A DNA stretch of 39,161 nt from Eubacterium sp. (GTDB taxonomy: Bacteria > Bacillota > Clostridia > Lachnospirales > Lachnospiraceae): the NCBI GenBank assembly GCA_024681515.1, contig JAILAR010000068.1, positions 1 through 39,161 of the forward strand, given 5' to 3'. Below, one piece after another: positions 25,111-27,879 of this stretch. Below the pieces are notes generated by a model. The model searched no databases. It was given only the letters and a program-made list of their open reading frames with translations, and was not told the origin of the DNA. Position 1 is the stretch's first letter. Each line of letters starts with the position of its first letter. A program made the translations under genes and the position numbers.

Positions 25111-26163
25111 ATGAAGAGACTTTCAAAAATGAATAAACACTTTCTTCTGCTGCTCCTGACGATGAGTCTGCTCCTTTCGTTTGCCGGCTGCGGACGAAAG
25201 AATACGGTTGCCACCGAAGTGCCGGAGGATATCACGGCCGGGTTCGAGGCAAAGAAGGATTATGTTCAGACCACGAAGGATGATACCCTGATCTATCGGC
25301 TGCCGGACGAATCCTCGGAGGTGTATGGAAAACTGAAGACCGGCGTGGATCTGAACCGGACCGGGGCGAAGAAGCTTTGGACAAGGATCCGGCTGAATGA
25401 CACGACTTTGTATGTAAAATCGGCAAATGTAAAGGAAACCACCATCGAGTGGGTGACGGAGCAGAAGAAGGCAGAGAACTCCCATGTGGTTTATATCGAT
25501 CCGGGCAAACAGATCAATGCCAGCAAAGAGACGGAAGCACTGGCGCCCGGAGAAGCGGATGAAGACGGCAAGCCCAAGATGTCGCCGGCGTCCGTCGGAA
25601 CAGCCTCAGGTAAATTTGAATATGAGATCACCCTCGCCGTGGCGAAGAAACTGAAGCGGGAGCTGGAAATGCGCGGCTACGAGGTAATCCTGTCCCGGGA
25701 GACGGATACCGTATCTATCAGCAATGCGGAACGTGTGGCAAACGGAAACCGGAGCGATGCGGAGATCATCATCCGTCTGTCGGCGCATGCTTCCACCAAC
25801 AGCGATTCCCACGGAATCTTCAGCCTGATCGCTTCCGCAACGAATCCCAACACGAACAAGAATTATCAGGACAGTTTCTACCTGGCCAATATGCTGGTTA
25901 CGGATGCATGCATGGAGACGGACGCAAACCGGCTGGGAATCTATCAGACGGATAAGACGGTGTTCCTGAATTTTGCAAAAAAACCGGCGGCTATCGTGCA
26001 GTTGGGCTTTCTCTCCAATGCCGAGGAGGATACAAAGCTGGCAACGGAAGAGTATCAGACGAAGCTGGCGGACGGTCTGGCGGATGGGATTGATTCCTAT
26101 TTTGAGTACTATGACGGGAAGTCAGAGGACGAAGCAGGCGGTAAGGAAAGTGATCCAAAATGA
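25111..26163 (+). CDS. lipoprotein with degenerate amidase_3 domain (probable pseudoenzyme)
   Basis: 350 aa. Signal peptide with lipobox SFAGC (C27). Residues 50-112 look like an SH3-type domain, and 124-335 an N-acetylmuramoyl-L-alanine amidase (amidase_3) fold. The family has zinc ligands His, Glu, His and a catalytic Glu. Here the first His of DPGH is K133 (IDPGKQ), the ligand Glu is kept as E170 (FEYEITLAVAKKL), the third ligand is kept as H226 (RLSAHAS), and the catalytic Glu of the VEMGF-type motif is Q297 (AIVQLGFLSN). Two of four key residues are lost, so activity on peptidoglycan is unlikely; a binding or regulatory role is possible. ATG at 25111 follows ATAAGGAG. Confidence 0.85.
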   Translation: MKRLSKMNKHFLLLLLTMSLLLSFAGCGRKNTVATEVPEDITAGFEAKKDYVQTTKDDTLIYRLPDESSEVYGKLKTGVDLNRTGAKKLWTRIRLNDTTLYVKSANVKETTIEWVTEQKKAENSHVVYIDPGKQINASKETEALAPGEADEDGKPKMSPASVGTASGKFEYEITLAVAKKLKRELEMRGYEVILSRETDTVSISNAERVANGNRSDAEIIIRLSAHASTNSDSHGIFSLIASATNPNTNKNYQDSFYLANMLVTDACMETDANRLGIYQTDKTVFLNFAKKPAAIVQLGFLSNAEEDTKLATEEYQTKLADGLADGIDSYFEYYDGKSEDEAGGKESDPK

Positions 26164-26183
26164 TTACGGAATTATGAAGGACA

Positions 26184-26364
26184 GTTGACATAAAGTTAAC
26201 ATTTGAGTTGACATAAAACGACAGCTAGTTAACATAAAAATGGCAAGTAGTTAACATAATGCTGACATGTTGGTTAACATAATTTAATGGATTGGTTGAC
26301 ATAAAAACGGTGTTTTGGTTGACATAAGCCATCCTCCTTTACATAACATGGTAGATTTACATAA
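26184..26364. repeat. array of 11 GTTRACATAA elements spaced in helical turns
   Basis: Copies start at 26184, 26195, 26207, 26228, 26250, 26261, 26273, 26295, 26318, 26337 and 26355. Seven are exact GTTGACATAA or GTTAACATAA; the others have one to three changes. Steps are 11, 12, 21, 22, 11, 12, 22, 23, 19 and 18 bases, close to one or two turns of DNA. The sequence between copies is not conserved. All copies point the same way. The array fills the space between the lipoprotein stop and a terminator. It resembles a binding-site array; a transposon end with repeated sites is an alternative, but no transposase is near. Confidence 0.8.
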
Positions 26365-26369
26365 TACAA

Positions 26370-26403
26370 ACGGGTGAAAATGATGATTTTCATCCGTTTT
26401 TTG
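26370..26403 (+). terminator. terminator after the GTTRACATAA array
   Basis: ACGGGTGAAAAT (26370-26381), loop GATG, ATTTTCATCCGT (26386-26397) with one G-T pair, then TTTTTT. It would end a transcript from the amidase-like gene, placing the array in that gene's 3' untranslated region. Confidence 0.8.
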
Positions 26404-26458
26404 TTGATTTTTTACAAAATGGTAAGCTCTCTTTCTCCAATCCTTGGCATTCGTTCTA

Positions 26459-26487
26459 TTGACACTAAACATAGGAAGTGATAGGAT
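26459..26487 (+). promoter_or_regulatory. promoter of the SH3/SleB hydrolase gene
   Basis: TTGACA (26459-26464), 17 bases, TAGGAT (26482-26487). About 40 bases downstream is an inverted repeat, CAATAATA-AGTAA-TATTATTG (26526-26546), in the leader where an operator could act. Confidence 0.55.
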
Positions 26488-26583
26488 ACATGCGTCATAA
26501 AAATGTAACAATATGAGTTAGTTTGCAATAATAAGTAATATTATTGTAACCTGATTCGCAAAGCGGAGAGTGTGTTCGGAAAC

Positions 26584-27879
26584 ATGAGCAGAAAATCGGA
26601 TCTGAAAAAAAGTCGAATAAAGTTTAATCTTAAGCGGTATGTGTTCTCCGGACGCTATTTCGTAAGAAATGCTCTGATCGTCATGATCCTTTTGACGGTG
26701 GTGGCTATCGGAGCAGTCGGGTTTGGCCTGCTGTCCTCGATGAAGGAGGACGGGAAACAGGTAATCGAAGAGGAAACACCTGATGATATACATGGAGATT
26801 CGGTTCAGGATTCCGTTCAGGATTCTCAGGAAGACTCGAAAAAAACGGTGTCCAGTCTGAAACCGGAAACCCCCAGCATGATCATGGACATTTCCGATGC
26901 ATCCATGGAAGAGTTGAAAACCATCATCGAAGAGGAGCAGACGGTTGATCTGACCGCAAGAAATGTCAGCCTTCTGGCCGGAACCAGAACTGATAATTAT
27001 CGGGGATTCCTTTGCATAGAAGATGCGGTGAATGTCCGGGCCGCTGCTGATGTAAACTCGGAAGTGGTCGGCAAGCTCTACAAAGGTGCAACCGGAGAAG
27101 TGGATCAGGAAAATGATCATGCAGCAGACAGCGCCTGGACGAAGATCACATCCGGTGATGTGACGGGTTATGTTGCAACCACCTATCTGGTGCTGGGAGA
27201 AGCCGCTTCTCTTCGCGAGGATGAAACCATCGGGATGATCGGTACCACCACCGGACAGAATGTATGTATCCGTACTGCCGGGTCTACGGATGCGGATCTG
27301 GTCTATATCGCTCCGCTGGGTACGAGAATGCGGATCGATCAGGCCGAAGATGCGGATGGCTGGTATCATGTACAGCTGGCGGACGGAACCTTTGGATATG
27401 TTTCATCGGATTATGTATCGGTGGAAGAGACAGGGATCACGGCTATTTCCGCGGATGAGATCCGGGCAGTGACCGACTGGAAAGAAGAGCAGATCCGGAA
27501 GGAAGAAGAGAAGAAAGAAGAGGCCATGAAGGCAGATCTGTATCTGCTGGCGGCCATAACCTACTGCGAAGCCGGTGTGGAGCCCTATGAGGGACAGCTG
27601 GCAGTTGCAAATGTCGTACTGAACCGTCTGCACTCCGGGCGCTACGGTTCCACTTTGGAGGATGTTATTTACGCTCCGTATCAGTTTACGGGATGCAAGC
27701 TGTCCTCCTTCTCCTGGGCACTTCAGACCGGCGGCTCCGATTCCTGCCTGCAGGCAGCAAGAGAGGCGTTGGAAGGAAAGAACAACATCGGCGACTGTAT
27801 GTTCTTCCGCGCAACCTGGGTTGCAGATCTGGATGCCATCGGAGATTATACGATCATCGGAACACACGTATTTTATTAA
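26584..27879 (+). CDS. cell-wall hydrolase, two SH3 domains plus SleB/CwlJ domain
   Basis: 431 aa. One N-terminal membrane helix (about 29-51) with a long linker to residue 125; bacterial SH3 domain 1 (about 140-200, with EDAVNVRAAADVNSEVVGKL); SH3 domain 2 (about 222-280, NVCIRTAGSTDADLVYIAPLG); a charged Glu/Lys helix (300-318); and a C-terminal hydrolase_2 domain (319-431) with AAITYCEAG holding the likely catalytic Glu and VANVVLNRL. SleB/CwlJ-type enzymes cleave peptidoglycan, in spore cortex or vegetative wall. The start is uncertain: GTG at 26572 is too close to GGAGAG, while ATG at 26584 is 13 bases from it. ATG is chosen. It follows the amidase-like lipoprotein, another wall-directed gene. 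Confidence 0.85.
   Translation: MSRKSDLKKSRIKFNLKRYVFSGRYFVRNALIVMILLTVVAIGAVGFGLLSSMKEDGKQVIEEETPDDIHGDSVQDSVQDSQEDSKKTVSSLKPETPSMIMDISDASMEELKTIIEEEQTVDLTARNVSLLAGTRTDNYRGFLCIEDAVNVRAAADVNSEVVGKLYKGATGEVDQENDHAADSAWTKITSGDVTGYVATTYLVLGEAASLREDETIGMIGTTTGQNVCIRTAGSTDADLVYIAPLGTRMRIDQAEDADGWYHVQLADGTFGYVSSDYVSVEETGITAISADEIRAVTDWKEEQIRKEEEKKEEAMKADLYLLAAITYCEAGVEPYEGQLAVANVVLNRLHSGRYGSTLEDVIYAPYQFTGCKLSSFSWALQTGGSDSCLQAAREALEGKNNIGDCMFFRATWVADLDAIGDYTIIGTHVFY

Follow-up and report, generated by a model that had tools for sequence, protein, structure and literature searches.

Direct-repeat arrays of a word resembling the XerD arm of dif in Clostridia: a possible platform of putative Xer half-sites

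Introduction

Between two cell-wall genes of a Eubacterium sp. (Lachnospiraceae), the short word GTTRACATAA is repeated many times on the same strand. Why should a single word be repeated in this way, and what could bind to it? The window, i.e. the whole stretch of DNA analysed, comprises 39,161 nucleotides of contig JAILAR010000068.1. The original prediction for this locus described eleven copies in helical phase, and proposed that they form a protein-binding array, an anchoring or partition site, or the end of a lost transposon. Here we describe the array, its orthologs and its occurrence in other genomes, and we compare its word with the arms of known Xer sites.

The array at the locus

The array and its neighbouring features are as follows (coordinates in the window):

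25111..26163, + strand, N-acetylmuramoyl-L-alanine amidase lipoprotein gene, upstream neighbour (Amidase_3, PF01520, E 7e-25)
26184..26193, + strand, array word GTTGACATAA, exact
26195..26204, + strand, array word GTTAACATTT, two mismatches
26207..26216, + strand, array word GTTGACATAA, exact
26228..26237, + strand, array word GTTAACATAA, exact
26250..26259, + strand, array word GTTAACATAA, exact
26261..26270, + strand, GCTGACATGT, three mismatches, the eleventh copy of the original prediction, probably chance
26273..26282, + strand, array word GTTAACATAA, exact
26295..26304, + strand, array word GTTGACATAA, exact
26318..26327, + strand, array word GTTGACATAA, exact
26337..26346, + strand, array word CTTTACATAA, one mismatch to GTTNACATAA and two to GTTRACATAA
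26355..26364, + strand, array word ATTTACATAA, one mismatch to GTTNACATAA and two to GTTRACATAA, adjoining the terminator
26368..26399, + strand, terminator-like hairpin followed by a T-rich tail
26459..26487, + strand, promoter-like TTGACA-17-TAGGAT, 5' of the hydrolase gene and outside the array
26572..27879, + strand, SH3 and Hydrolase_2 (SleB-like) cell-wall hydrolase gene, downstream neighbour

The array indeed lies between a stop codon, that of the amidase gene, and the terminator-like hairpin. All seven exact copies of GTTRACATAA (starts at 26184, 26207, 26228, 26250, 26273, 26295 and 26318) are on the + strand and all seven are preceded by a purine. Their steps are 23, 21, 22, 23, 22 and 23 bp, and the steps between copies listed in the prediction were likewise reproduced. 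The predicted number of eleven holds for these seven and for three weaker copies, but the copy at 26261, with its three mismatches, is at chance level. Steps of 11 and 12 bp occur only beside weak copies.

When the 437-bp intergenic stretch was resampled 2000 times with a first-order Markov model, the exact word turned up 0.012 times on average (both strands) and never more than once per resampled stretch, and a chance origin of the array was therefore rejected. The whole window contained 38 words with at most two mismatches versus 36.0 expected, i.e. no excess; the unusual feature is the clustering of the words, not their total in the window. Tandem Repeats Finder reported weak arrays only at the locus, with scores of 37 and 64. 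The seven exact copies gave a Rayleigh R of 0.23 at 10.5 bp, which does not support the predicted helical phase, and of 0.96 at 11.1 bp, a regularity with a P value of 0.006 versus random steps of 18-24 bp. That is, the exact copies are regularly spaced yet rotate around a 10.5-bp helix.

No Rfam match to positions 26000-26700 was obtained up to an E-value of 0.1. A structured RNA element was rejected on this basis, and arrays inside open reading frames (ORFs) and in antisense orientation, described below, also argue against it. A BLAST search of plasmids with the region gave no matches, and a search of phages gave short Erwinia-phage matches only (query bases 229-278, on the terminator side). 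A consensus scan yielded 8 promoter-like matches in 26150-26620 versus 2.1 expected, and it assigned -10-like partners to some of the words, whereas the prediction had stated that no word has a matching -10 box 17 bases away. At 26497-26515, 3' of the hydrolase promoter, we observed a direct repeat resembling TGTAAY-N5-TGTAAC, similar to a WalR box, which recurs in many orthologs (L010-L024) and is partly degenerate in the window itself.

Conservation at orthologous loci

An amidase search matched 60 of the 61 genomes of the genus set, and 30 loci were taken, own genome included. Words after the stop codon were counted in the 13 loci whose amidase is 50% or more identical (L009-L021). Just after the amidase stop, the own genome has 10 words with at most two mismatches, while G019 has 6 and G036 and G017 have 8 each. 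Two or three words were found in each of L014, L016 and L017, and a single one in each of L013, L015 and L018, whereas L019, L020 and L021 lack words near the amidase stop. Copy number of the words varies between orthologs, and single GTTTACATAA words remain in the same gap of some distant genus members (e.g. L036).

Alignment of the orthologous gaps, as proposed in the original prediction, showed words that were kept and spacers that had changed. With the fourth base of each word scored as spacer, own genome and G019 had identical columns in 54/54 word and 26/61 spacer positions, own genome and G036 in 68/72 and 33/83, own genome and G017 in 66/71 and 28/82, and G036 and G017 in 67/71 and 50/82; the alignment was partly word-driven, so that the contrast is suggestive and not a formal test. 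These numbers suggest that the word columns stayed nearly identical in the four aligned species while the spacers changed. The steps of 19 and 18 bp on the terminator side were kept in the own genome, G019, G036 and G017. The claim that both the word and its facing on the helix are preserved holds for the word, but not for a 10.5-bp phasing.

Arrays in other genomes

The own genome (197 contigs) has one such array, and contains 73 exact GTTDACATAA words versus 19 for the reversed control. Word pairs were present in 14 class genomes out of 393 (2 for the control) and in 33 family genomes out of 396 (6 for the control); both counts include the own genome. A search for clusters of at least three words in other genomes had also been suggested, and in a genome-contig collection the three-word pattern gave 113 stretches. 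Seven were dropped for a spacer identity of at least 0.9, and the 106 that were kept include some likely tandem repeats or chance matches, e.g. L087 and L091. Among the 80 titles listed of the 113 stretches, 69 belong to Lachnospiraceae, Oscillospiraceae, Ruminococcaceae, other Clostridia or Bacillota and 11 to other groups; Lachnospiraceae account for 47 of these titles, one Butyrivibrio included. No description of such word arrays was present among the literature matches listed.

Steps in the 106 arrays are mostly 18-24 bp, with 21-22 bp being common. The flanks of the arrays contain 93 additional words in 748 kb versus 10 controls. If the array is taken as +, 46 of the 77 arrays with clear flanks have their flanking genes in ++ orientation, 14 have them in +-, 11 in -- and 6 in -+, and by GC skew the array strand is the leading strand in 70 of 104 cases. 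The loci occupied by arrays differ from genus to genus. The setting between wall genes emphasised in the prediction is therefore real at this locus but not general, as other arrays flank radA, thrC, NAD kinase, sepF and recA genes. A survey of neighbour families covered 140 of the 146 neighbour proteins, with the 6 longest left out. The 25 commonest Pfam (of 172) and NCBIfam families did not include a transposase, which speaks against the predicted transposon end. Ten stretches of viral contigs match the pattern, of which at least one is a true tandem repeat. Rows of words are found in the viral-contig records L177, L180, L183 and L184, with up to nine copies in L177.

Eleven arrays are embedded in ORFs, where they occupy several reading frames and either strand. 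All steps are divisible by 3 in 11 of these 11 arrays, as compared to 122 of 293 steps elsewhere, although this count is somewhat biased because some ORFs run off the edge of the locus and because a frame that reads the TAA of the word as a codon cannot stay open. The word is translated as VDI or VNI in seven ORF arrays and as LHK or LHN in two, and in the antisense ORF arrays as LCK in one and YVN in one. Three of the host ORFs pass curated NCBIfam cut-offs (HemW, RlmD, TlyA). Judged from their sequences, the arrays look like in-frame insertions in, or tails of, ordinary enzymes. That frame and strand vary among these arrays implies that the DNA word itself is what is kept. In-frame insertions or tails of words were seen in L064, L126, L164, L075, L114, L111, L123 and L115 (HemW, RlmD, TlyA and others).

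Resemblance to the XerD arm of dif

Two positions of the word were free in the search, and across 441 copies in 106 arrays a purine precedes GTT in 84% and the fourth position is D (A/G/T) in 97%, which gives the extended consensus RGTTDACATAA. Read on the opposite strand, this consensus is the 11-bp XerD arm of dif. According to excerpts of PMC3025954, dif of B. subtilis is ACTTCCTAGAATATATATTATGTAAACT, which ends in TTATGTAAACT (reverse complement AGTTTACATAA), and dif of E. coli ends in TTATGTTAAAT. Excerpts of PMC2731167 list the dif arms TTATGTTAACT and TTATGTAAACC and describe positions 23 and 24 of dif as more variable. The array words match the right-arm pattern of dif, TTATGTNAAC(T/C), whose reverse complement is (A/G)GTTNACATAA. 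The array itself is not a dif site. XerCD/dif has two inverted arms around a 6-bp centre, whereas the array consists of direct repeats of one arm with steps of 18-24 bp, and the inverted XerC arm with its 6-bp centre is missing.

A dif-like site conserved in the genus, GTTACCATAA-N5-TTATGTRAAC, lies near the terminus, and its right arm is the array word. The pattern GTTANCATAA-N5-TTATGTNAAC occurred with at most two mismatches in 36 of 57 genomes, versus 8 of 57 for the reversed pattern. An exact dif-like site with the GTTACCATAA left arm was found in six genomes, including the own genome (C142:101763). Its spacer has 5 nt, in contrast to the 6 nt of classical dif. Bacillus-type dif patterns gave no match in the own genome. 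Across 22 genomes, the second of these patterns matched no better than its control. The histogram of gaps between inverted arms is weak, as gaps of 5-7 hold 16 matches and gaps of 25-26 also hold 16.

Genes resembling xerC/D lie within a few kb of the array in 8 of the 106 loci, with a score below the XerC and XerD cut-offs. In two of these eight, the first array word supplies the stop codon of the xer gene. A cluster of cwlD, radA, a XerC/D-like recombinase and an array was observed in Oscillospiraceae/Ruminococcaceae (L070, L083, L088, L093, L094, L149, L073 and L122).

Position relative to the terminus

In both complete relatives, G005 and G002, this arm forms inverted pairs close to the GC-skew switch. 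The dif-like site of G005 lies at the switch, 11 bp after a xer gene, and that of G002 lies 41 kb from the switch. The window is syntenic with 195-210 kb of G002, and contig C142 of the own genome is syntenic with the G002 terminus. In G002, about 374 kb, or 9.7% of the genome, separates the orthologous locus from the skew switch, and 8.6% separates it from the dif-like site. In G005, the genes of the window map around 2.36 Mb, a long way from the terminus, and that 20-kb block contains one exact word.

Sampled single words numbered 3 in 410 kb near the terminus versus 13 in 300 kb elsewhere in G002, and 4 in 240 kb versus 19 in 300 kb in G005. The word-rich contigs G616, G508, G568 and G764, which were selected for having several arrays, contained 29, 14, 17 and 16 words (controls 1, 0, 1 and 1). 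No skew switch was present in their sampled parts, and the words of G616 surround a dif-like site. In G302, a two-word pair is on the origin side of the contig and an inverted pair of arms is in the terminus interval. Overall, the evidence for clustering of words at the terminus is mixed to negative.

A XerS-like gene is located at the skew switch of both G002 and G005 (228 bits, cut-off 267). Upstream of it is a difSL-like 24-mer, TTCGTGAAACCATAGTTTTGCGAA, which is identical in G002, G005 and G016 (L353), the last of which also has the XerS-like gene. The coordinates of these loci are:

G002, L310 at 3,689,909, with 3,690,023-3,691,204
G005, L326 at 183,189, with 183,436-184,545

At the terminus, the genus therefore combines a recombinase gene with a linked Xer-type site, as in known difSL/XerS systems, although the arms of difSL are unlike the array word. 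With the XerS-like gene and difSL-like site at the switch, dimer resolution there may fall to XerS instead of classical XerCD.

Alternative explanations

The word is probably a Xer half-site. This reading follows from the conservation of words but not spacers, from the identity of the word with the right arm of the dif-like site of the genus, and from the recurrence of arrays, including those in frame inside ORFs. For the broader question raised by the original prediction, the conserved words and the in-frame arrays make a protein-binding array the best reading. Alternatively, the words might be bound by a non-Xer protein, for example of the nucleoid-associated or domain-boundary type, with a half-site that looks like a dif arm through chance or common descent; the inverted pairs near the terminus would then be its dimer sites. 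The excess of single words throughout the own genome, their lack of concentration at the terminus in G002 and G005, the odd 5-nt spacer of the dif-like site and the presence of XerS/difSL at the terminus would all fit such a protein. We nevertheless consider it unlikely, because the match extends over the whole arm, including the flanking purine and fourth base that had been left free, because dif-like pairing occurs near the terminus in G002 and G005, and because XerC/D-like genes adjoin some of the arrays. A response regulator of the OmpR family (WalR/PhoP type) that controls the downstream hydrolase through TTWACA-like direct half-sites is an improbable candidate. WalR/YycF and PhoP boxes are likewise direct half-sites near wall genes; the reverse complement of the word holds TGTTA, TGTCA or TGTAA, which come close to the WalR motif of S. 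aureus, TGTHH-N6-WGTNDD (PMC10746227); and both the 11- and 12-bp gaps and the single words in the gap of distant genus members would suit it. Yet the array word is longer (10-11 bp), the six exact-word steps are all 21-23 bp rather than the half-site spacing of about 11 bp, a terminator separates the array from the hydrolase promoter, the own genome has three TTWACA-N5-TTWACA sites versus seven for the control, and arrays elsewhere flank unrelated genes or sit inside ORFs. The response-regulator reading is thereby weakened.

A mobile-element remnant or decoy, either the multi-site end of a transposon or Xer sites serving integration, would explain why arrays sit at differing loci across genera as insertions in genes, and why viral contigs match the pattern; multi-site ends exist in known transposons. 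We regard it as very unlikely, since the neighbour survey brought up no transposase in the commonest families, four species share the same gap and terminator-side spacing, and no two-ended element was seen at the locus of a genome that has one array. Even less probable are overlapping sigma-70-like promoters with the words as -35 (TTGACA) or -10 (CATAAT) boxes. The promoter-like matches exceed expectation and the last two words form TTTACA-16-CATAAT, but the common steps of 21-22 bp give overlong spacers, the array would fire straight into the terminator, and some arrays are antisense or inside ORFs. A functionless tandem duplication with drifting spacers agrees with the weak tandem arrays and the variable copy number, but is hardly credible, as words are unchanged and spacers near random between the own genome (G000) and G019, and arrays recur at many loci.

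Possible function of putative Xer half-site arrays

If the words are Xer half-sites, each may bind one Xer monomer separately, as their sequence suggests. With the inverted partner arm missing, a Xer-loaded row could not recombine by itself, and would instead act on passing chromosome machinery. The chances seem about even that the array is a platform of putative XerD-type half-sites without a partner arm, perhaps unloading SMC. Karaboja et al. are said to have described, in 2021, XerD-specific SMC-unloading sites in B. subtilis, and the XerD-bound chromosomal sites reportedly require neither XerC nor dif. That XerD unloads SMC in B. subtilis is stated in excerpts of PMC8357415, PMC12322038, PMC8242196 and PMC9733580. 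By analogy with XerD at its own B. subtilis sites, the likeliest job of the arrays would be to unload or stop SMC complexes, which we propose tentatively. Although this would be the same mode of action, the arrays differ from the B. subtilis sites in having many direct-repeat words, in also lying inside ORFs and in occurring in Clostridia, and clustering at the terminus is contradicted for single words in two relatives. The array might have the anchoring or partition role of the original prediction, given that the word matches the arm of a Xer site.

A more speculative and rather doubtful extension is that gut Clostridia have a second, non-recombining Xer system, with rows of XerD half-sites serving as polar landing pads along the chromosome arms, where SMC motors would be unloaded or stopped, in lineages whose dimers are now resolved by XerS/difSL, and with rows tolerated as in-frame insertions in genes such as hemW, rlmD and tlyA. 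The arrays may bear on the question how XerD unloading sites are built outside B. subtilis. If they bind Xer, they provide a large natural design set (3-11 words, steps of 18-24 bp, both strands), which could show what makes an unloading site and whether it is polar, and which bears on chromosome organisation where XerS handles dimers. In-frame arrays in housekeeping genes would then show chromosome-scale needs rewriting protein loops.

Inverted pairing of the word was also observed next to an array. In L116 (6775-6880), three tandem inverted word pairs with 6-nt spacers lie directly before a direct-repeat array.
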